DNA of 23,571 nucleotides, taken from the IMG/VR virus record IMGVR_UViG_3300037042_003694, positions 1 to 23,571 of that record. One strand, written 5' to 3'. The position numbers and the translations under genes were made by a program. The stretch comes from a virus. Shown here in pieces: positions 784 to 19,070 of the stretch. Within the stretch, counting starts at the first letter, position 1, and every line of letters starts with the position of its first letter. The notes beneath the pieces were generated by a model. The model was not told the origin of the DNA, did not search any database, and worked only from the letters and a program-made list of their open reading frames with translations.

Positions 784-995
784 CTCGCTTCGGCGCGGAG
801 ATCCGCGACCTGTCCCTCGAGCACGCGGACCCGTTCCGCGAGCTTTGCGCCGCGCGCCTCGGCGAGCTCGGCCTCGAGCCGCTCGAGCCGACGGTCGACC
901 CCCTCGACCTTGCGACCGACATACACGAGCGCGCCGCACACCGCGGTCGCGCAGCCAACGAACGCGCCGATCGTCGTCGGGTCGATCTCCGTCAT
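780..995 (-). CDS. Membrane-anchored coiled-coil protein (71 aa), candidate i-spanin or holin accessory
   Basis: The start at 995 overlaps the endolysin stop (ATGA). One hydrophobic helix spans residues about 9-29 (IGAFVGCATAVCGALVYVG). It is followed by a charged heptad-type coiled coil from about 33 to the end (DRRLERLEAELAEARG, then RVRVLEGQVADLRAE). An N-terminal membrane anchor with a coiled-coil ectodomain is the layout of Rz-type inner-membrane spanins, and the gene sits directly after the muramidase gene. It is shorter than lambda Rz, and I see no separate or embedded Rz1 gene with a clear lipobox. A small holin-associated protein is possible. Confidence 0.7.
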   Translation of the reverse strand: MTEIDPTTIGAFVGCATAVCGALVYVGRKVEGVDRRLERLEAELAEARGAKLAERVRVLEGQVADLRAEAR

Positions 996-1618
996 GCGAT
1001 CACCCCGTAGGCCGTGCACAGCTCAGCGAAAGTCCCCGCGTAGACGTCCAGGTCAACGTGCTTCTCGATGCCCGGGACGACCCCGTGCCACGAGTGCTGC
1101 CAGAAGTCCCAGCGCTGCCATCCGCGCGGCACGATGGGCGTCTGGGCGTCCACGTGCGCGACCCAGAGCGGGCACTCGGCGAGGCGCTCGGTGTGCAGGT
1201 GCGGCGCGAACCCGGGCATCGTGTAGAGGATGGGCCGCACCTCGGTCGAGACGTGCACGTGGTCGATCCACTCGCACGCCGCGTCGGTGATTCGGTCCGC
1301 CGTCAGCTTGTACGCGCTCTCGACGTCGAGGACCGGAGGAAGCTCGCCGGCGCCGTGCTGCGCGAGCAGCTCCAGGACGAGGTCCGCTTGCGGCAGCGCG
1401 GCGCGATCGGCGCGGAAGAACTGGTAGACGCCGCGCAAGATCCCGGCGTCCCGCGCACCGGCCCAGTTGGCGGCGAAGAGCGGGTCGCGATAAAGCGCAT
1501 CCGCGGCGCGGATGAACGCGAATCTGACGCCACTATCGCGCACCTTGGCCCAATCGATCACACGCTGGAACTGCGAGACGTCGATGCCGGGGCAGCCTGC
1601 GGGCGCTGGCGTGGTCAT
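992..1618 (-). CDS. Endolysin, GH25 family lysozyme (muramidase)
   Basis: This 208-residue protein is a single GH25 domain that hydrolyses the beta-1,4 bond between N-acetylmuramic acid and N-acetylglucosamine to release progeny phage. Recognisable family motifs, in order: GIDVSQFQ with Asp13; FAFIRAAD (33-40), the second strand; GVYQFFRAD (63-71); PPVLDVES (94-101) with the acidic pair Asp98 and Glu100; ILYTMPGF (130-137); PLWVAHVD (150-157); WDFWQHS (170-176); and VDLDVYAG (188-195). Length is typical for a catalytic-domain-only enzyme. No cell-wall-binding domain or signal peptide is visible, so export would depend on a holin. The ATG at 1618 overlaps the stop of the upstream small membrane peptide (ATGA). 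Confidence 0.95.
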   Translation of the reverse strand: MTTPAPAGCPGIDVSQFQRVIDWAKVRDSGVRFAFIRAADALYRDPLFAANWAGARDAGILRGVYQFFRADRAALPQADLVLELLAQHGAGELPPVLDVESAYKLTADRITDAACEWIDHVHVSTEVRPILYTMPGFAPHLHTERLAECPLWVAHVDAQTPIVPRGWQRWDFWQHSWHGVVPGIEKHVDLDVYAGTFAELCTAYGVIA

Positions 1619-1713: not shown

Positions 1714-2027
1714 CACGGCCCCTCGGGAGGTGGATCCGGAGGCACCACGACCGCGCGCGCGAACGGCACCATGTCCGGCGTCCGGTCCGCTGGCGAGGTG
1801 TTGACGATGGCCATGACCTCGGCGCACGGGCACTGCGTCCACACCTCGACCGAGACGCCGTCACCCGCAGCGTAGGCCGCGAATCCAAGGTCTGACAGCC
1901 ACGCGAGGAGGTCGCCGACGAGCTCGTTCGGGGTCGTGATCTGCAACGCAGGGTCCGGCCCGCCCTGGCCATCGAACATCGACAGGATCGCGAGCGTCGC
2001 GGCGAGCTTGATGTCGTCGATGCTCAT
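1713..2027 (-). CDS. Hypothetical phage protein (104 aa)
   Basis: The start at 2027 overlaps the stop of the fibre gene (ATGA). The N-terminus (DDIKLAATLAILSMFDGQGG) looks helical; the middle (NELVGDLLAWLSDLGFAAY, then GDGVSVEVWTQCPCAEVMAIV) looks like a compact mixed fold; the C-terminus is proline-rich (VVVPPDPPPEGP). I do not recognise a family. Its position between fibre and lysis genes would suit a fibre chaperone or an accessory protein, but the sequence does not show which. Confidence 0.75.
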   Translation of the reverse strand: MSIDDIKLAATLAILSMFDGQGGPDPALQITTPNELVGDLLAWLSDLGFAAYAAGDGVSVEVWTQCPCAEVMAIVNTSPADRTPDMVPFARAVVVPPDPPPEGP

Positions 2028-3679
2028 AGACTCGCCGACGTCGATCCGCCCGTGCGTCCGCTGGCCGGCGTGGTGTTGAGCGTGTTGGTGCAGGCACCCG
2101 TCTGGGCGTTGCAGACCACCACGAGACCACCGTGGCCCCCGGTTCCGTCGGATCCCGGACCTGGTCCGCCGCCGGCGGCCCCCCCGGCGCCGCCCTGTCC
2201 TCCGGTGGACGAGAAAGCGTTCGACACTGCCGACCCGGTGCGGGACCAGTACGCGACCTCGATCATCCCGCCTCCGCCTCCACCTCCGCCCCCGCCGGCG
2301 CCGTCGTTTGCGTAGCCATTTGCACCGTTCCCGCCGGCTCCGCCTGTCGCACGGAACATCCCAGATGCGGTGCTGCCGCCGGTGAGAAGCTCATACGCGT
2401 GGAAAACGAGCGTGTAGCCTGCGAGCCCGCCCCCACCGCCGGACGACCCCTGATTCCAGCAGCAGGGCCCTGGCCCGCCGCTGCCGCCGCCGGCGCCTGA
2501 AGACGCCGGCCTGACGCTGTTTGCCGCGATCGGAGATATGGGCCTCCACGGGATGAGCCACCGCCGGGTGGTGTGCACCGCCGGTACCCGGGAGGCCCCT
2601 CCACCTCCGGTTGAGCCGGTGCCTCCGGCGCCTCCGGTTCCCCCCGGGTACCCTAACCAGATTGCGGCCGATGGGCCGCTTGCCTGTTGCCCCGTGTTGG
2701 CCGAACTCGCGCCATTCGTGCCGGCAGTAGGCAGCAAGAGATCCGAGGCCGTGAACGCTACGGCGGTAGCCGTGCCTCCGGCAGCGTTGGTGTTGTACCC
2801 GCCAGCGTTTCCATTCGCGGAGGCCGCTGGCGTTGGCTCGACCAACCAGACCGCTGGTGCGGCCGTGAGGTCCGCCGTGCCAGACGCATATAGCGGGTAG
2901 CCGTTCGCCAAGATCTGGCACCCAGACTGGACCGTGACGTTCTGGTAGTACGCGGTCCGCGTGAGCGCCCCGGACGTCAGCGGGCCCGACGTGATCGTCG
3001 ATGACGAGCACGTCAGGTTTCCATCCGAGCCATCGCCGAACAGCTCGGCGATCGTGCGCAGGTCGGCGGTGCTGCCGGACTGGGCTTCGAGCGCGTCAAG
3101 CCGGCCCCCGGCGGACGTCTCGAAGGTCATCATCTCGTCCCAGAACGAGGCGAAATCGACGCTCGCGATGGTGGCGTTCCCGGCGACGAGCGTGTCGTCG
3201 ACCGTGACGTTGTCCGCGGTCAGGTTGCCCGTCGTGAAGGTCGTCGCGAACCCGGCGACCGTGGCCGTCAGGGCGTCGAGGGCGGTCTCGATGCTGGCGA
3301 ACGATGGCGCGGGCACCAAGACGATGGACCCGGACGTTGCGCCCGAGCTCGCCGAAGCGCTCGCGAATCCCATGAAGGTCTTGCTTGCGCTGGTCTTGCT
3401 CAGGCCGGTGTCGCCCTGCGCGTAGTATAGAGCGTCGCCAACGGTCCACGCAGAGCCCGCGACCTTGGCGACGGTGTAGACGCCCTCGCGTCGCAGGCGT
3501 AGCTGCGCGCCTGACGAGACGCCTTGCGCGGCGATGCCCGTGAACCCGCCGACGATCACCGGATCGCCGACCGAGACGGTCCACGGAGCCGTGACGATTA
3601 CGACCTCGCCGGCGGCTTTGGCGGGTATCGGGGCGAGGGCGCAAATGAGCGCAGCGAGGATAGAGAGTAGGCGCTTCAC
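2024..3679 (-). CDS. Glycine-rich tail fibre/adhesin with signal peptide and DUF2190-like N-terminal domain
   Basis: I choose the GTG at 3679 because it overlaps the upstream stop (GTGA); the open frame runs 32 codons further upstream, but that part is arginine-rich shadow. Residues 1-22 look like a Sec signal peptide: MKR, a hydrophobic core (LLSILAALICALAPI), then PAKA-A. Residues about 23-124 match the DUF2190-like decoration domain encoded at 15626-16552, including GEVVIVTAPWTVSVGDPVIV and VGDALYYAQGDTG. Residues about 125-215 look like a trimerising stalk. At 216-270 there is a pattern familiar from glycine-rich phage adhesins (AYYQNVTVQSGCQILANGYPL). Residues 285 to the end are glycine-rich, with a run of ten glycines at 462-471 and final GGHGGLVVVCN. 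Such regions form host-binding glycine-rich tips in other phages. A signal peptide is unexpected on a virion protein. Confidence 0.85.
   Translation of the reverse strand: MKRLLSILAALICALAPIPAKAAGEVVIVTAPWTVSVGDPVIVGGFTGIAAQGVSSGAQLRLRREGVYTVAKVAGSAWTVGDALYYAQGDTGLSKTSASKTFMGFASASASSGATSGSIVLVPAPSFASIETALDALTATVAGFATTFTTGNLTADNVTVDDTLVAGNATIASVDFASFWDEMMTFETSAGGRLDALEAQSGSTADLRTIAELFGDGSDGNLTCSSSTITSGPLTSGALTRTAYYQNVTVQSGCQILANGYPLYASGTADLTAAPAVWLVEPTPAASANGNAGGYNTNAAGGTATAVAFTASDLLLPTAGTNGASSANTGQQASGPSAAIWLGYPGGTGGAGGTGSTGGGGASRVPAVHTTRRWLIPWRPISPIAANSVRPASSGAGGGSGGPGPCCWNQGSSGGGGGLAGYTLVFHAYELLTGGSTASGMFRATGGAGGNGANGYANDGAGGGGGGGGGGMIEVAYWSRTGSAVSNAFSSTGGQGGAGGAAGGGPGPGSDGTGGHGGLVVVCNAQTGACTNTLNTTPASGRTGGSTSASL
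2267..2296 (-). repeat. Poly-glycine codon run (C/G-rich low-complexity tract)
   Basis: Ten consecutive glycine codons of the fibre gene (residues 462-471) give a near-continuous GGN tract on the coding strand. Further GG-rich tracts lie at about 2140-2200, 2430-2500 and 2600-2645. This is low-complexity coding sequence, not an intergenic repeat. Such tracts are prone to slippage and could allow length or phase variation of the host-binding tip. Confidence 0.7.
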
Positions 3680-3996
3680 AGCCGCACCTTCATTCCGATT
3701 TCCACGGACACATCGCCGCCGATCGCGAAGACGCGCACAACGCTTGCCCCTGGCCCACCCTGCGCGTCGTGCCACTCGCTCACGGGGTCATCGGCCGTGA
3801 GGAAGTAGCCCGCCGTCTCGGTAGGCGTGCCGTCCTGCTCGTAGCGCAGATCACCAGCGCTCGCCTCGAGCCGCTTGACGCGCCACTCGACGGTGTTGGC
3901 CACGAGTGCGATCGGATCCGAGCATTCGCCAGATGCGACCGTGACGATGGTGGGAGTCCCCAGACGTACGCTCGGCTCTCGGAAGCTACGGGCCAC
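3676..3996 (-). CDS. Hypothetical small protein before the fibre gene (106 aa)
   Basis: The start is a GTG. Two are possible: 4002, whose first base lies inside the GGAGG at 4002-4006, and 3996, which leaves a five-base spacer; I prefer 3996. The stop overlaps the fibre GTG (GTGA). The protein is soluble and beta-rich, with segments TPTIVTVASGECSDPIALVAN, VEWRVKRLEASAGDLRYE and ASVVRVFAIGGDVSVEIGMKV. I do not recognise a family. Its ribosome binding site lies in the 3' arm of a hairpin (4005-4025), so its translation may be controlled by RNA structure. It may be a tail-tip or fibre-attachment protein. Confidence 0.75.
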   Translation of the reverse strand: MARSFREPSVRLGTPTIVTVASGECSDPIALVANTVEWRVKRLEASAGDLRYEQDGTPTETAGYFLTADDPVSEWHDAQGGPGASVVRVFAIGGDVSVEIGMKVRL

Positions 3997-4025
3997 AGGC
4001 ACCTCCTATCGCTGGCGACGATAGG
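3994..4025 (-). promoter_or_regulatory. Ribosome binding site within an intergenic hairpin
   Basis: In the RNA sense, CCTATCG and CGATAGG (positions 4019-4025 and 4005-4011) form a perfect 7-bp stem with a 7-base loop. The 3' arm ends in the AGGAGG ribosome binding site (4002-4007) that precedes the GTG at 3996. The overlap means folding would partly hide the site. There is no U-run, so I do not call a Rho-independent terminator. Confidence 0.6.
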
Positions 4026-4647: not shown

Positions 4648-6354
4648 CTACTCTCCCGGCACCCAGTCGATGGACAGCGCCAAGAGATGCAGCTCGGTCA
4701 CCGGCTCCATCGTCACCGCGAAGGCCGGCTCGTCGCGCGACACCTCGATCGTGGTCTCGATCAGGCCATAGGTGTCCGCACCGGCACCGCTCCCGTTGTT
4801 CGGGATCGTCAGCTCCGCCCCGCCACCGCCACCGCGCTCGGACACGTAGACGTGCGAGTTCGTCCCGTCGCTGCCGGTGTCGTAGGCGTAGGCCGAGATT
4901 CGTGCCGTGGCGCCGCCCTGGCCGACGAAGGAAGTCGGCGACAGGCCGATGGTGCGGGCAGGTTTCGCCGTGCTCGAGTCGAGCGTAAGCGCCGCCTTCG
5001 GGGTAGCGCCGTGGACGAACGGGATGGCCATCGAAAAGAGCCGTTGACGGCGGTCCGCCATCACGCGCGCCGGGTTCCGCCAGGCGCGGTTGTACCACTC
5101 GGGATGTATGCTGGCGCCCTCTTGGATGATTTGCCCGAGCCCCATGAACTCGAACCCTGACCCCGCGCCGGCCGAGAGGTCGATCAAGTCCGTCACGCGC
5201 GGCGTCACCATGATGCCCATGACCCGCACCACGTCGGCGCCTGAGCACGTGACCCGGAACCGGAGCATCGTCGTTGCCGCCGGAATCGTCAGCGTCAAAT
5301 CGGTCCATTCGGTGAGTCCGGAGATCGTGGCCTCGGCCGTCGTGTCAATGTCGGTCCAGTCCCCTGCGGTGTCGGGGTCGGGCTCGGCCACATCGTTCTG
5401 GGCGACCGCGAGCGTGGCCAGTGTGGCGGTTCCGTAGGTCACGATCCGGACCACGTACTCGAGGCCGTCGGCGCTTGGGACGATCGGCTGCAGGATCGAC
5501 TGGTCGTTGTGCCCGACGGCGAGGCCCCCGTCGTAGTACGGCGCGACGTTCACAAGCGGCGGCGCGTGGACGAGGAAGTGCCAGTTGACGTCATTCGCGA
5601 GCTTGCGCACGGGGTCGCTATAGGCGGTCTGGAGCCCCGAGAGTTCGTCCGCTCCGATCCCCAGGAAGCGGCCCGTGAACGGATAGTTGGGCTCGGCGAC
5701 GAAGGCGACCGCGGGCCAGTCGGTAGGCGCCACGGCGTAGGCCGGCGTCGCGCTGTCGCGTCCACCGAGCACAAGCGTGTCCGCGAGGAACGAGCGGCGA
5801 CGGTTGCCGCCCGACATGTCCGCGCAGATCCCCGCCACCGCGCCATAGCCCGTGCGGCTCGGAGACCCGCCGACCTCGAGCGCACCGTAGCGCAGTTCGA
5901 TTCGGTCCCACGTCTCGAAGAGCACCGTCTGCACCTTCCCGCGTTCGTAGATCGATCCGTTGTGCGCCGAGAGGAGCTTGATATACCACTCGATCACGCA
6001 CCGACGGAACGGCGCCGTGCCCTGCACCTCGGCCTTGACGTAGCCCACCGAGTCAGCGGTCGCGCAGTCGTCCCACCATGCGGCGATGAGCGGCAGATCC
6101 GTCGAGCCGAAGAACACCGCCGGATCTGCGCCCGGGGCGGCGTTCGTGAAGTCGACGAAGCCTTGTCCGCTCAGGTAAGCACTTGTGTAGGTCGTTCCGT
6201 CCAGGCGGAAATCGAAGCCCCACGAGAAGTTCGCGGCCGCGGCACTGTTAGCGCCGAGCACCGTCGTGGCCGAACTGAACGGATAGAATCGGGTGTCGGC
6301 GCTCCGCCGATGCACCAGCATCCGCGTCATGTCCGTTGCCTTCAGCGCTGGCAT
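4648..6354 (-). CDS. Tail protein with N-terminal nidogen-like adhesin domain (568 aa)
   Basis: The ATG at 6354 begins one base after the upstream stop. Residues about 20-200 follow a pattern I know from secreted adhesins with a nidogen-like beta-sandwich: GQGFVDFT, then LPLIAAWWDDC (88-97), FRRCVIEWYIKL (116-127), VQTVLFETWDRIELRYG (141-157) and a closing glycine-rich GYGAVAGI. Residues about 290-390 look like a second beta-sandwich of the carbohydrate-binding jelly-roll type (LTEWTDLTLTIPAATTMLRFRV). The C-terminal 150 residues carry a glycine run (RGGGGGAELTI) and a beta-rich end. By position it follows the baseplate hub gene, so receptor recognition is the likely role. The domain reading is pattern-based and needs a profile search. 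Confidence 0.8.
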   Translation of the reverse strand: MPALKATDMTRMLVHRRSADTRFYPFSSATTVLGANSAAAANFSWGFDFRLDGTTYTSAYLSGQGFVDFTNAAPGADPAVFFGSTDLPLIAAWWDDCATADSVGYVKAEVQGTAPFRRCVIEWYIKLLSAHNGSIYERGKVQTVLFETWDRIELRYGALEVGGSPSRTGYGAVAGICADMSGGNRRRSFLADTLVLGGRDSATPAYAVAPTDWPAVAFVAEPNYPFTGRFLGIGADELSGLQTAYSDPVRKLANDVNWHFLVHAPPLVNVAPYYDGGLAVGHNDQSILQPIVPSADGLEYVVRIVTYGTATLATLAVAQNDVAEPDPDTAGDWTDIDTTAEATISGLTEWTDLTLTIPAATTMLRFRVTCSGADVVRVMGIMVTPRVTDLIDLSAGAGSGFEFMGLGQIIQEGASIHPEWYNRAWRNPARVMADRRQRLFSMAIPFVHGATPKAALTLDSSTAKPARTIGLSPTSFVGQGGATARISAYAYDTGSDGTNSHVYVSERGGGGGAELTIPNNGSGAGADTYGLIETTIEVSRDEPAFAVTMEPVTELHLLALSIDWVPGE

Positions 6355-6355
6355 C

Positions 6356-8920
6356 TCAGCTCCATTGGACCTTGTCCGTGTTCTGGAGGTACCGCGCTTG
6401 CGCCTCGGTGCACTCGGCGTTGACGGGCCACGTGAGCCGCATCGACGTCGTGAAGGTCATCGTCACCGATGGCCACGCGCTGAGTGCGATGCGTGCGACC
6501 CCGCCGCCGGGGAGCGTCACGCCGGAGACGGTGACGAGGCCCGCGCCGTCGTCCTCGCCGGGCGTGTAGGCCAGCAACTTCCACGGGGTGCCGCGGTTGC
6601 CGTAGATCAGCGCGTAGTAACTCTCGTCCACGTCGAGCGAGGTGGGCGCGGTGGCCGTGCCGTTGACGGCGAGGACGGGGACCGACGGCGACATCGGCGG
6701 CGCGGTGCGCTTCCCGTCGATCGCCACCTCGACGGTCTGCGCGCCGGTCTCGAGACGGAGCTGGACGCCGAGCACGCGTGCGAGCCCATGATAGCCCGGC
6801 GCGGCCCGCGAGTAGTCCCACAGCGCAACGTCGTCCAGGTCGAGCATGAGCACGTCGCCCACCTGCACGTCCTGCCACGGCGGGAGGTCCAGCTCGACGA
6901 CCTGCCGCTCGCACGCTTGGAACCACGAGCTCGCCCACGCCTGCGCGGGTAGCAGGAGCGTGGAGCGATCCACGCCGTAGACGTCCAGCTTCCAAACGTC
7001 GTCGGTGCGGTCGGCGACGTCCTTGCTCTTGGCGATGATCACGCCCTCGCTGCCTTCCTGGTCGCCGATGTCCGCCGTCTTGCACGTGACCTGGATCGTC
7101 TGCGGCGCTGCGAACGAGGAACGCACGCGGATCGGGCGCGTCGATGGATCGACGAAAGCCAAGTCCGCGTCGCGAATGGTCGCGACTACATCGAAGGTGT
7201 CCGGCGGGCCGACGTTCACGGCCGCGATCTCCATCGCGCTTCCGTCAGCCGAGCGGCGAGCGGCGATACCACGCTGCGAGAGCTTGAGCAGGCCGCCCAT
7301 GAGCTTGGCAAGCGACGTCCCAGCGTCGACCGCGAGCACGGCGGAGATCATGCCGAAGGCACCATCGAAGACGTCCGCGAACGACTGCGCGTCGATGTCG
7401 GGCATCGCGTAGCCCTGGCCACGCGCAAGCGTGTCGTGCGCGCCGTTCACGCCGTCGCCGGTGCTCACGATTGCGCGGCGCATGACGTCCTCGACCGGGC
7501 CCTCGTCGCGCCACAGGAACGTGACGGACAGTTCGGCGGACTCGCCCGAGACATCATCCGCAGCGAGCATCACAAGGTCGCTGCCGATGGGCTGGGATCC
7601 CGGGTCCAGCTGAAGGTGCACCTTCGCGCCGTTCCCGGCGTCGACGGAGAGTGACGTGTACTCGAGGATCTGCTTCTTGTCTCCTCCCTCGATGCGGATG
7701 AATCCCGCAGTCGGCAAGTCAGCGGGGTCGCCTTCCTCGATGACAACCGCGAGGCTTCCGCCAACGACCTGCGTCCGCTGAATCAGCTGCGTGTCGTAGT
7801 TCTCGGTCGCTCCAAGCCAAATCTTGAGCGGCACCTCGACAGCGATGCCAGCCTGTATGCTGGACACAGAGATCGTGACGCGTGTCTCAGCGTCCGTCTG
7901 GGTCGAGTGAAACCACATCCTCCAGACGCGGCGCATCGCGTCACCGTCCGGGCTCGTCTCCTGTTTCCATCCGATGAAGTCGATCGGCGAGCTCGGGTTG
8001 TCGGCAAGGATCCGAGCGAGCAGTTTATCGGCAATGAGCTTGCGGGCTCGCGATGGCGCAACCAGCGTGGACCCATCGCTGAACGTGTTGATCGCCACCT
8101 CGGTCACGATGGCCGGGCTCGCCACGGGAGTCTGTCGGACCTTCATGCAGATCGTGTGGCTGAAGCCGACGTGCTGGAGTCCGTCTTGGTCGAGGGCCCA
8201 AGAAGCCGTGCCCTGCGCGGAGGCCGACAGCGGTGCGCGCAAGGTCTGCACCTGGTCGCTCGCGATGCACTCCCACTCGGTCCCGTTGCGCACCGGCCGC
8301 GCCGACATGTAGCCGGTCCAGACGCAGCACGCTTGCGAGAGGATGTCCCCGCCCGAGGTCACGACGTAGCGCGCGCACGGGTCGATGAGCGCCATGAACA
8401 GCTCGACGCGGCGGCGCTTCCAGTCGCCGGGCGAGTCAGTGACGACGGTGCCCGCGGGGTAGGTCTTCGCGGGGCCGTAGACGCTTCGGTCGAGCGCCGT
8501 GAAGGCGTCGTAGAGGTAGCCGGTCTTTTCGAGGCACGACGTTCCAAAGTAGATGGTCGACGCCGCCGTCGGGAAACCTGCGGTGGAGTCGACGGCCATC
8601 GTCGTCGCGTCGTGCGCGAACTCCGCCGTGATGGTCGTTTGAGCCGTCGGCCGTCCCATCAGCGCGCGCACCGCGGGCGTGTCCGTGAGCCGGAACTCCA
8701 GATCCTTCGCGCCCGCGAAGTGGTCCTTGTCCGAAAGCACGGAGCCGATGCGCGCGCTTCCGTCGATCACGAGGCTCGCGTCGAGCGTGTAACCCGTGGG
8801 CGCGTTCGCGTCGCGCACCGCCTCGACCAAGAGAGTCGTGATCCCCTCGATTCGTAGGATGTAATAGGGCGCGAACCCGTAGCGGATCGCGCCCGTCAGC
8901 GTGGCCCACGGCGCGCTCAT
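6356..8920 (-). CDS. Baseplate-hub / tail-tip protein, gpJ-position (854 aa)
   Basis: This is the largest tail-tip gene, placed after two small tip genes as lambda J or the hub proteins of other siphophages are. The N-terminal 90 residues (APYYILRIEGITTLLVEAV, SLVIDGSARIGSVLSD) resemble hub domain 1. Residues about 104-165 form a small beta module I recognise from phage tip proteins (TTMAVDSTAGFPTAASTIYF, then TALDRSVYGPAKTYPAGTVV). This is followed by RVELFMALIDP, CVWTGYMSARPV and GTEWECIASDQVQTLRAPL, typical of the gp27-like hub barrel. The C-terminal half (DVQVGDVLMLDLDDV, ARVLGVQLRLETGAQTVEVAI) also fits a hub. The start at 8920 overlaps the upstream stop (ATGA). Confidence 0.85.
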   Translation of the reverse strand: MSAPWATLTGAIRYGFAPYYILRIEGITTLLVEAVRDANAPTGYTLDASLVIDGSARIGSVLSDKDHFAGAKDLEFRLTDTPAVRALMGRPTAQTTITAEFAHDATTMAVDSTAGFPTAASTIYFGTSCLEKTGYLYDAFTALDRSVYGPAKTYPAGTVVTDSPGDWKRRRVELFMALIDPCARYVVTSGGDILSQACCVWTGYMSARPVRNGTEWECIASDQVQTLRAPLSASAQGTASWALDQDGLQHVGFSHTICMKVRQTPVASPAIVTEVAINTFSDGSTLVAPSRARKLIADKLLARILADNPSSPIDFIGWKQETSPDGDAMRRVWRMWFHSTQTDAETRVTISVSSIQAGIAVEVPLKIWLGATENYDTQLIQRTQVVGGSLAVVIEEGDPADLPTAGFIRIEGGDKKQILEYTSLSVDAGNGAKVHLQLDPGSQPIGSDLVMLAADDVSGESAELSVTFLWRDEGPVEDVMRRAIVSTGDGVNGAHDTLARGQGYAMPDIDAQSFADVFDGAFGMISAVLAVDAGTSLAKLMGGLLKLSQRGIAARRSADGSAMEIAAVNVGPPDTFDVVATIRDADLAFVDPSTRPIRVRSSFAAPQTIQVTCKTADIGDQEGSEGVIIAKSKDVADRTDDVWKLDVYGVDRSTLLLPAQAWASSWFQACERQVVELDLPPWQDVQVGDVLMLDLDDVALWDYSRAAPGYHGLARVLGVQLRLETGAQTVEVAIDGKRTAPPMSPSVPVLAVNGTATAPTSLDVDESYYALIYGNRGTPWKLLAYTPGEDDGAGLVTVSGVTLPGGGVARIALSAWPSVTMTFTTSMRLTWPVNAECTEAQARYLQNTDKVQWS

Positions 8921-15625: not shown

Positions 15626-16552
15626 TTACGCCGAGGCGCGCTCGATGCTGATCGAGAGGTCGCGGAGCGTGGCGAGGTTGGACGCATGGCCCGCGTTACT
15701 CGTGGCCCGCACCGTCACGTCGAAGCCAGCAGTGGACGAGGCCGTGATGGCCTTGGCCTTCTGGATGCTCCCCGGCGTGGTCACCGTGCTGTCCTTGAGG
15801 ATCTGCGTCGACTTCACCTCGCCGGTGATCGAGCCGCCGACCGCGGTGCACTTGATCCGCGTGTGGCCCGCTGCATAGTCGTCGGCAGCCGCCGTGGCGA
15901 TCACGGCCGTGTCGACGACCGTGGACCCGACGAGGACCTCGACGGTCACCTGCGGGGTCGAGTCGGACCCGTCCACATAGACCGACCAGTCGATGTTGAG
16001 GAAGTCGTCGGCGACCATGAAGGCCGCTCCCACCGAGCACTTTTCGGTGAAGACGTGCGCCGCGGTGTCGGTCAGGTTGACCTGGTCGCCAACGCCGACG
16101 TTCGAGTCCGAAAAGACGAGGCCGTTCACGTTGTCGAGCGCGTCGACTCGAAGGTCGAGCGTCCCGCCATTCAGGGCGATCGCTTCGAGGTCCTCGATCC
16201 GGGTCAGCTGTGCCGCGGCCTCGACGACCTTCAGCGGGAAGATCGCGTACTTGACGAGAAGCGCACCGCTGGCGGCATACTCAGTCGCGACGGCGACTGC
16301 CGGGTTCGCCGTGTCGGTGTTGAATTCCTGGTCGGCGATGTCCCAATAGAGCAGCTCGCCGACGTCGACCACATAGCCGGTGGCCTTGGTCCCGACGAAC
16401 TCGCCGCCAATGCGGACCGCCACGAGATCGCCGACCGCGGCTGCCTTCTCCGGCACACACGCCATGCCGTTGATGATTTCCAGAACGCCGGCCTCGAGGA
16501 TGTTCGGCGTCACGATGTTGATGAGGTCGCCGGCGCCGCGATAGTTCTGCAT
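15626..16552 (-). CDS. Capsid decoration (DUF2190-like) protein with extra C-terminal domain (308 aa)
   Basis: Residues about 1-105 fit the DUF2190 pattern of small capsid-cementing proteins: MQNYRGAGDLINIVTPN, MACVPEKAAAVGDLVAVRIG, then VGELLYWDIADQEF and a closing LLVKYAIF. Residues about 106-308 form an added beta-rich domain, with VDALDNVNGLVFSDS, SVYVDGSDSTPQVTVEVLVG and GFDVTVRATSNAGHASNLAT. Such extensions on decoration proteins are often displayed on the capsid surface. The ATG at 16552 has a strong ribosome binding site (AGGAG, about eight bases upstream) after a 61-base gap, consistent with high expression. Lambda has gpD upstream of E; here the decoration gene follows the capsid gene. 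Confidence 0.8.
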   Translation of the reverse strand: MQNYRGAGDLINIVTPNILEAGVLEIINGMACVPEKAAAVGDLVAVRIGGEFVGTKATGYVVDVGELLYWDIADQEFNTDTANPAVAVATEYAASGALLVKYAIFPLKVVEAAAQLTRIEDLEAIALNGGTLDLRVDALDNVNGLVFSDSNVGVGDQVNLTDTAAHVFTEKCSVGAAFMVADDFLNIDWSVYVDGSDSTPQVTVEVLVGSTVVDTAVIATAAADDYAAGHTRIKCTAVGGSITGEVKSTQILKDSTVTTPGSIQKAKAITASSTAGFDVTVRATSNAGHASNLATLRDLSISIERASA

Positions 16553-16613: not shown

Positions 16614-19070
16614 TTAGCTCCGGTTGATCTGGACGAGGCCGCGATGGTCCACCGCGGCAACGTAGAACGGCAGGCGGACCTTGTAGTTCTTGCCGTCCGT
16701 GGTGAAGCCGTCCTCTTCCGTGAGGTCGGGCCCCTCGGCGCCATCGAGATAGCCGTACTGGATCGAGACGATCTCGTTCGGGTCGGCGACGAGGATCGAG
16801 AACACCGGGCTCTGATCGTCGAGGAACGGCTCTTGAATGAGGCCGTCGATGAGTCCTCGCATCGAGTTCGTCGGTGCCGTGCCGGACGAGGTCGGCACAT
16901 AGCCAGGCCCGAGGAACGCCTCGGCCGTGGCCTTGTCGTCGATCCCGAGGATCCAGAACTTGGGCTCGAGGCTGAGGTAGTCGCCGAGCGCGTCGGGTTC
17001 GCCGGCGAGACCAAGCTCGCCCTTCTGCTTGCCCATAGCTTTCCGTCCGCTTTGCAGCGTCGTGAAGCTCGGCGTCCCCGTCGATGCCGCGATGTTGGCG
17101 TGTCCGACGGAGAACAGATCCGTCGTCCCGTCGGCCATCTTGTTTGCCTCGATCATCGCCTTGAACTTGCGATTTTCGTAGCGCAGGCAGGCCGTGACGC
17201 GATCGTCGGCGAGCTGCTGGATGCGGCCCCAACGATCCGCAAGGATGAGCTCCCAGCTCACCGGGAAGATGCGTCCGCCCTTGGCGAGCCTGACGTCGTA
17301 GTCGCTCTCGGTGACCCCGCCCATCTCGTACTTGCCGTTTTCAGGCACGTCGAGGAGCGGTGGGAAATTGCCACCACCGATCGCCTTCGTCGACTCGAAG
17401 TCGGGCAGGTTGATCTTCTTCGCGGCCAGCTTCCAGGCGCTCACGCGCTCCGTGTAACGCTGCTTCGTGTAGGTGCGGAGGGCCGCGCCAACGAGGGTCG
17501 ATAGGTCCCCGGTGCCCGACAGCGTCCGCACCGCGACGTGATCGCGGCGAGCGCCCATCAGGACCTGCACACGCTCCAGGCGCGACATGCCGCGGAGCTG
17601 GCGGGAGTCGCCGCCTCGCGACTCAAAAAGCGTCTCGGCGAGATCCATCATCGAGAGCCGCGATGCGCGCTTGACCTCGGGGTCGTCGTGTTTCACGCCG
17701 ATCTCGGCGAGTTCGGCGCGAAGGGCCGGAGAATCCTTGCCGGCGAGGTGCACCGCAAAGCCGGCGTGCAGCACCGAATAGAGCTTCTCGGTCGCCTCGG
17801 CGCCAACGTCGACTTGATGGTGATTGCTCACGCTGGTGGTCCTTTTCGGATCGGCTGCGGCCGCGAGGATCGAGAGCTTCGCCTCGGTGAACGTCTTGGC
17901 CGTCGTGACGATCTTTTCGACCGCGGCCTGGTCGAGCCCGAGGCTCGTCGCGAGCTGGCGACCCATCGCGAGGTTTGCGGCGCGTTCGGCGGCGAGCTTG
18001 TTCGCGCGGACCTCGACGCGCCGATCGGTCGCGGCCGACAGCGCCTTGGCCGCCATCGCAGATGCGGCCGCGGGCACAGTGCCGCACGCCTCCGCGCAGA
18101 CCTTGCACGCTTCCGTGCACGCGGCCGTGCACGCATCGCAAGCGGCCATGCAGCTTTCGGGCGTCGCGTCGGCAGCGGTGCACGCGTCGGCACACGTCTG
18201 ACACGCGGCCTGACACGCGGCCATGCACGCGTCCGTGGCGGCCTGAGCGCCAGCGACGGCGAGCTTGTTTGCGGCGGCGATCTGCTCTGCGGTCATGGTC
18301 ATCGTGGGCTCCTCGTGTTGCGTTCCGGAGTCTGTTCCCGCGCGATGCGCGAGCGAGATGGGGGTGTCGGAGAATGCCGCCGAGAGCGCTGCGCGCACCT
18401 GCTCCACGCCTGCGGCTTGGACCGCCGGAACATTGCAGACGCTGCACTCGGTCAGTTCGGCCGAGGTGAAGACCCACTCGGCGCGGGCGCTTGCCCCGTT
18501 CGCTCCGGCGATCGTGTCGCCGGGCAGGTGGTAACACTTGGTCAGGACCGGCGCGGCGCACGCGCTACACTCGATCGGGCCCGTCGGTGCCCATCCGATG
18601 GAGACGCCACCGAGCAGGCCGCGCAGCGCGAGATCAACGGCCCAGGGGGCGGTCAGGACGGCGGTCATTCGGATCGCGTGCCCGCCGCCTGCGAGCTGCT
18701 CGGTCGTCGACCTGGTGATCGTTCCGGCTCGCGAGAGGCTGTCCTCTTGGGCGTGGTCACGAAGAAACGGCATGCCGACGCCGCTCGCGCCGAGAGCCGA
18801 CATCGCGGCCTCGGAGAATCGGACGTGACGACGGTTCGCGACGCCTGGCCGCTGCTCGTAAGCGAGCAGGTCGATCGAGAGCGAAACGAACTCGCCGGCC
18901 GCGCACTTGGCCAGCATCGCGTCACGCAACGCTGGCGTAATCGCTGCGCCGTCCGAGGCATAGAGCCGCGTTTCGGGTGCCGTGACGACTGCGCGGCAGA
19001 CGACCGGCATCGCCTTTCTGAGCGATGCCTCTCGCGATTGCAGGTGCATGGTGTGCTGGCTCACGAGCAC
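16614..19070 (-). CDS. Prohead protease-scaffold-major capsid fusion polyprotein (818 aa)
   Basis: One frame covers protease, scaffold and capsid, a known fused arrangement in some phages. Residues about 20-215 are the prohead protease: FVSLSIDLLAYEQ, RHVRFSEAAM, PFLRDHAQE with His106, and GLLGGVSIGW with Ser157 as the likely catalytic pair. CxxC pairs at 168/171 and 209/212 may bind zinc. Residues about 260-420 are the helical linker/scaffold; inside it, residues 282-329 hold 12 cysteines in CxxxC/CxxC spacing. Residues about 425-818 are the major capsid protein, Mu gpT-like: VGAALRTYTKQRYTERVSAW, PPLLDVPENGKYEMGGV, RIFPVSWELILADRWGRI, PVFSILVADPNEIVSIQYG, then a C-terminal strand. The start is uncertain: GTG at 19070, GTG at 19064 or ATG at 19049. 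Confidence 0.9.
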   Translation of the reverse strand: MLVSQHTMHLQSREASLRKAMPVVCRAVVTAPETRLYASDGAAITPALRDAMLAKCAAGEFVSLSIDLLAYEQRPGVANRRHVRFSEAAMSALGASGVGMPFLRDHAQEDSLSRAGTITRSTTEQLAGGGHAIRMTAVLTAPWAVDLALRGLLGGVSIGWAPTGPIECSACAAPVLTKCYHLPGDTIAGANGASARAEWVFTSAELTECSVCNVPAVQAAGVEQVRAALSAAFSDTPISLAHRAGTDSGTQHEEPTMTMTAEQIAAANKLAVAGAQAATDACMAACQAACQTCADACTAADATPESCMAACDACTAACTEACKVCAEACGTVPAAASAMAAKALSAATDRRVEVRANKLAAERAANLAMGRQLATSLGLDQAAVEKIVTTAKTFTEAKLSILAAAADPKRTTSVSNHHQVDVGAEATEKLYSVLHAGFAVHLAGKDSPALRAELAEIGVKHDDPEVKRASRLSMMDLAETLFESRGGDSRQLRGMSRLERVQVLMGARRDHVAVRTLSGTGDLSTLVGAALRTYTKQRYTERVSAWKLAAKKINLPDFESTKAIGGGNFPPLLDVPENGKYEMGGVTESDYDVRLAKGGRIFPVSWELILADRWGRIQQLADDRVTACLRYENRKFKAMIEANKMADGTTDLFSVGHANIAASTGTPSFTTLQSGRKAMGKQKGELGLAGEPDALGDYLSLEPKFWILGIDDKATAEAFLGPGYVPTSSGTAPTNSMRGLIDGLIQEPFLDDQSPVFSILVADPNEIVSIQYGYLDGAEGPDLTEEDGFTTDGKNYKVRLPFYVAAVDHRGLVQINRS
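18084..18227 (-). other. 12-cysteine cassette within the scaffold region (DUF326/copper-storage-like pattern)
   Basis: Residues 282-329 of the polyprotein contain cysteines at 282, 286, 290, 293, 297, 307, 311, 314, 318, 322, 325 and 329, all spaced by two or three residues apart from one loop. The alanine-rich helical context (CMAACQAACQTCADAC, then CMAACDACTAACTEAC) matches the pattern I know from Cys-rich four-helix copper-binding proteins. Metal binding is inference. Confidence 0.75.

Follow-up and report, generated by a model that had tools for sequence, protein, structure and literature searches.

Virions of tailed phages are held to assemble in the cytoplasm, so a working signal peptide on a virion fibre is unexpected. 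Capsid-cement proteins of the family PF09956 (DUF2190, Phage_cement_2), with phiCD508 gp48 and TW1 gp56 as solved members, are mostly of about 110 aa, lie beside the capsid gene, begin with MKN(Y/F) and carry no signal. To our knowledge, the head fibre gp8.5 of phage phi29 has no signal peptide either. This protein possesses a base-plus-fibre architecture (PMC6542822, PMC7602432), in which an N-terminal decoration-fold base on the virion capsid is followed by a protruding fibre with a supercoiled stem. Decoration proteins such as Dec attach to mature capsids in vitro. T-even gp38-type adhesins, the Bxb1 tail tip and a springtail antifreeze protein contain glycine-rich bundles of PPII/PGII-like helices, and we know of no cement base in gp38. 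Exported proteins resembling phage fibres are an established family in Bdellovibrio, the mosaic adhesive trimer (MAT) fibres (PMC10769870). Phages also encode signal-bearing envelope accessories, including the outer-membrane beta-barrel Lom of lambda and the lipoprotein Llp of T5, neither of which is a fibre; the lambda lom gene is located between those of the tail spike and the tail fibre (PMC12309495).

The window analysed here is a whole IMG/VR virus record of 23,571 bp, possibly a genome fragment, whose minus strand encodes in this order a terminase, a portal, a protease-capsid fusion, a decoration protein, tail proteins, a fibre protein and a lysis region (Table 1). The fibre protein shares its fold and profile in residues 24-118 with PF09956 proteins, from which it differs by its length, a signal in front, a fused adhesin and a location next to the lysis genes. 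Its base-plus-fibre layout resembles that of phi29 gp8.5, with a glycine-rich adhesin in place of the supercoiled stem, and the model of this adhesin recalls the bundles of Bxb1, the antifreeze protein and, weakly, gp38. Compared by architecture alone, the protein also resembles MAT fibres, which combine a signal, a beta-rich domain of ~130 aa, a phage-fibre-like stalk and an adhesive tip, but these are encoded and exported by the bacterium and their first domain is not known as capsid-cement.

Table 1. Coordinates of the fibre gene, its parts and selected neighbours in the window.
Feature	Position	Strand	Evidence or remark
Whole fibre gene: signal peptide, cement domain, stalk and adhesin	2024..3679	-	GTG start, 551 aa
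Predicted signal peptide of the Sec type, spanning residues 1-22 (MKR / hydrophobic core / PAKA), with a putative cleavage site between AKA and AG	3614..3679	-	Heuristic score 49.8; start-site and GC3 evidence
Capsid-decoration (cement, PF09956/DUF2190) domain, residues 24-118	3326..3610	-	PF09956, PHROG 122, model
Linker or fibre stalk, residues 119-204	3068..3325	-	Translation read directly; no family match
GDGSDGN glycine-rich adhesin domain, residues 205-551, six cysteines	2027..3067	-	Relatives in scans; model
Capsid decoration protein at its ordinary position, directly after the capsid gene	15626..16552	-	PF09956 E 6.6e-8, PHROG 122 9e-11
GH25 endolysin, lysis region downstream of the fibre gene	992..1618	-	PF01183 E 2.1e-38; phrog_291 endolysin
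Small gene immediately upstream whose end overlaps the fibre start (GTGA)	3676..4002	-	Gene overlap

The stand-alone PF09956 cement gene adjoins the capsid gene (16614-19070), whereas the fibre gene lies about 13 kb away from it and adjoins the lysis genes instead. Searches with PF and PHROG profiles yielded no significant family match for the small upstream gene, and in IMG/VR no relatives were found for the two tail genes (4648-6354, 6356-8920). Short membrane-type ORFs beside the endolysin (304-939 and 780-1019, within the region 304-1019) appear holin- or spanin-like by eye.

The preliminary description had recognized three parts in the fibre protein, a typical Sec signal peptide, a decoration-type domain behind it and a glycine-rich adhesin, and all three are upheld. 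The stretch at positions 3308-3679 of the minus strand corresponds to residues 1-124. Translation starts with a GTG at 3679 (read as M) rather than an ATG. This codon shares bases with the TGA stop of the upstream gene, and AAGGTG lies in front of it. Third-position GC, read in the same frame, rises from 0.36 just upstream to 0.73 in the signal stretch, so coding is taken to begin at this GTG. The putative 22-residue signal peptide, VKRLLSILAALICALAPIPAKA followed by AGEVV, possesses all Sec (SPase I) features according to a heuristic: a positive n-region (MKR), an uninterrupted hydrophobic core (LLSILAALICALAP) and an AKA site. The score in Table 1 comes from this home-made heuristic, not from SignalP; apart from the fibre gene, a single one of the 22 scored window genes obtained a value at all (23.7), and scores of at least 42 were obtained for 23 of the 1574 ORFs of at least 150 aa in the loci. 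A lipoprotein signal was rejected, as the lipobox [LVI][ASTVI][GAS]C is unmet: the only cysteine of the signal stands in ALIC, with I at position -1. There is no start codon between the signal and the decoration domain, so the intact domain can be made only together with the signal, and predicted cleavage falls ~3 residues ahead of the first modelled strand of the domain.

Residues 24-118 match PF09956 with an E-value of 7e-15 (55.7 bits against a curated cut-off of 24) and PHROG 122 'head decoration' with an E-value of 1e-13. The domain model, built with 49 sequences, has a pLDDT of 91.9, and its closest solved folds are phage capsid proteins: phiCD508 gp48 (Z 13.6), HFTV1 (11.8), Pam3 (9.5) and TW1 (8.0). 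The phi29 head-fibre base (6qyy) is a weak match, with Z 6.2 over 94 residues and an rmsd of 3.7, below the stand-out level of Z 8, and a sequence search against solved structures gave only weak matches. With a profile match above the cut-off and a predicted capsid-decoration fold, the domain is genuine. We inspected about 100 cement proteins encoded on viral contigs or in prophages; nearly all begin with MKN(Y/F) or close variants and none carries a signal peptide. No relative with the full architecture was found, and the fusion of signal, cement domain and adhesin is unique within this sample: stand-alone cement proteins start without a hydrophobic segment, and signal-bearing fibres have no cement domain. 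In one bacterial class, PF09956 occurs in 28 of 385 genomes, always in open frames of at most 208 aa, with no signal in any of the loci read.

The domain had also been interpreted as a duplicated capsid-cement module. The shared family stands, as the window's own decoration protein belongs to PF09956 too, but copying from this gene is neither supported nor rejected. The two domains are 22% identical, compared with 29-39% between the fibre domain and cement proteins of other phages. In a tree of cement domains both are on long branches with poor support, and a constraint making them sisters gave a p-AU of 0.694, a comparison biased because the relatives had been retrieved with the fibre's domain as the query. 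The decoration protein itself has a C-terminal extension of ~200 aa, and similar ones are present in L102, L111, L123 and L076.

The C-terminal GDGSDGN domain was found at 41 loci in one scan, with 134 confirmed matches in another and at 12 loci in a scan of genome contigs; in most cases it forms the end of a fibre protein, and the N-termini of these proteins vary. Its model (pLDDT 81.4, pTM 0.84) predicts a PPII/PGII-like bundle similar to polyproline-II-type bundles and to the glycine-rich tail tip of Bxb1; its resemblance to PP01 gp38 is weak. VIA Z values for glycine-rich bundles range from 3.5 (PP01 gp38) to 8.1 (springtail antifreeze bundle) and may reflect a shared repeat arrangement alone, and Foldseek returned nothing below E 8.9 for the adhesin fold. 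In the bacterial genomes L131, L135, L136 and L138 (Patescibacteria, Zixibacteria, Cloacimonadota), the domain stands behind a signal- or membrane-anchor-like start.

Of the six cysteines in the mature protein, five are at alignment columns with none in 38 relatives, and the column of the sixth has one other case; Cys523 and Cys530 are predicted to lie opposite each other across a hairpin. The argument from cysteines is modest, because the signal-less relatives L017 and L156 also have six in the aligned region. Signal-bearing adhesins taken together contain more cysteine (0.97 vs 0.44 per 100 aa), but this difference was given no weight, since the group comprised three proteins only.

Fibres with predicted secretion signals recur in many other phages. 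Two of them (L021 and L163) combine an independent signal with the window's adhesin domain, making 3 of 132 distinct ORFs with the window included. L163 led to the cultured phages PBR31 (gp35), BcepC6B (gp19) and QDWS, to which a Cys-pair motif is common. A scan with this 48-residue motif, from which the signal was excluded, returned 80 loci, and a signal peptide opens 77 of the 85 distinct motif-bearing ORFs; by eye, two of the remaining eight also appear signal-like. With one setting for both sets, a signal was detected in 75/83 motif ORFs (~90%) versus 131/2150 control ORFs (6%), bearing in mind that the motif seeds themselves carry signals and that related sequences among the 83 are not independent. 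Starts as signal-like as the window's occur in 58 of the 2150 controls. Among 24 motif ORFs the signal varies (17-26 residues, core identity 35%) more than the mature start does (52%), which is the pattern expected if the signal is cleaved off.

The motif search also covered the window ORFs and gave no match to PSCS...GFGCN among them at E 1e-5; the window fibre shares the N-terminal signal with the Cys-pair class, but not its motif. BcepC6B gp19, PBR31 gp35, the QDWS tailspike, L163 and L021 are likewise fibre- or spike-like proteins that begin with a Sec-type signal. Where the surroundings could be read, their genes close the tail module, and in the three cultured phages they stand between the tail and the lysis genes; none of the five proteins has a cement domain. 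Several such phages encode a separate fibre or spike beside the signal-bearing one. A search of open-access PMC papers turned up none that treats phage fibres with signal peptides as a class.

Some further features of these loci are worth recording. Two signal- or motif-bearing Cys-pair fibre ORFs are present in each of L223, L225, L228, L229, L236, L238, L239, L260 and L270. An O-acetyltransferase gene lies beside the signal-bearing fibre, on the opposite strand, in L220, L237, L260 and L215, but was rejected as a general neighbour (3/79 loci only). Shewanella phage vB_Sb_QDWS (L215, OK094664.1) encodes a 688-aa signal-bearing pectate-lyase-like tailspike ORF (4776-6842), annotated as two pieces, one of them as a gene on the opposite strand. 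This genome and that of 'Hujiaoplasma phage zrk29-1' (L344, OP650936.1) are both 47,902 bp long and agree at 100% of the 8,297 bases that were compared, despite assignment to very different hosts. PBR31 gp40 (also L216 7107-7754), near the signal-bearing gp35, is reported to be an esterase with a signal and with similarity to tail-associated hydrolases of phages (PMC10975493).

We propose, with moderate confidence, that the product of the fibre gene is an accessory adhesin made late, exported through Sec and kept in the periplasm until the cell lyses, with the Bdellovibrio MAT fibres, Lom and Llp as known parallels. Judging from its sequence, the fibre is probably exported by the infected cell rather than incorporated into virions in the cytoplasm. 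The preliminary description had left the choice between export and a role of the hydrophobic start in the virion; export appears the more likely option, as the recurrence of signals on phage fibres suggests that it is real.

The fibre would be translated within the tail-to-lysis gene run, where overlapping genes are observed. Its signal would direct it to Sec and be cut at the AKA site, leaving a mature start just ahead of the first strand. The decoration domain would then fold as a cement module, as modelled, of the kind that forms trimers and is able to serve as a fibre base; trimerization is suggested by analogy with phi29 gp8.5 and related proteins. Assuming that the host has a periplasm, the glycine-rich domain would fold in this oxidising compartment, which could allow its six unusual cysteines to pair. 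We found no route by which the fibre would cross the outer membrane, so it should be confined to the periplasm before lysis and may be retained there until the neighbouring lysis genes fire. Outside the cell, it could bind surface glycans, block receptors on debris and neighbouring cells and/or dock on released capsids via its cement base, the last being possible because Dec-type proteins bind mature capsids in vitro.

A counterpoint to export is the nature of the cement domain: as a virion module, it favours a role in the virion. The two could be combined if a capsid-decorating head fibre were exported to the periplasm, where it would fold and form disulfides apart from capsids, and were loaded onto virions only at lysis, with the signal-bearing fibres of other phages behaving likewise; we regard this variant as doubtful. 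Alternatively, the protein may be a virion head fibre whose cement base assembles on the capsid in the cytoplasm, like phi29 gp8.5, its hydrophobic start being uncleaved or otherwise processed and no working signal. The intact cement fold, closest to capsid proteins, and the base-plus-fibre layout (PMC6542822, PMC7602432) are consistent with this. We nevertheless consider it unlikely, given a signal with all three Sec regions, the recurrence of signal-bearing phage fibres, the absence of a hydrophobic start from the ~100 inspected cement proteins and a gene position away from the capsid gene.

A factor of superinfection or surface conversion, produced by a prophage or early in infection, that is exported and masks or alters the phage's receptor on the living cell, like T5 Llp or lambda Lom, would also combine a signal peptide with an adhesin domain. 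Its slot after the tail genes recalls that of lambda lom (PMC12309495), and signal-bearing fibres have an O-acetyltransferase as neighbour in three loci and also in QDWS. However, such neighbours are rare, and the fibre has no outer-membrane anchor, beta-barrel or lipobox, so that a soluble protein would remain periplasmic. Neither an integrase nor a repressor was recognised in the 23.6-kb record, which may be incomplete, and surface conversion of this kind seems rather improbable. It is very improbable that the hydrophobic start is a chance, misassembled or misread N-terminus and that the true protein begins elsewhere: the record is metagenomic and without a close relative and the start is a GTG, but no alternative start codon gives an intact domain, the third-position GC, the GTGA overlap and AAGGTG agree with this GTG, and such signal-like starts are rare in both control sets.

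The exported accessory adhesin that we favour would be one of a recurring group of fibre- or spike-like proteins with a Sec-type signal, in this case fused to a decoration domain. Such proteins suggest that either many phages make exported adhesins that are filed as tail fibres, or some virion parts are added after export. Either reading would alter the sequence-based prediction of receptor-binding proteins.
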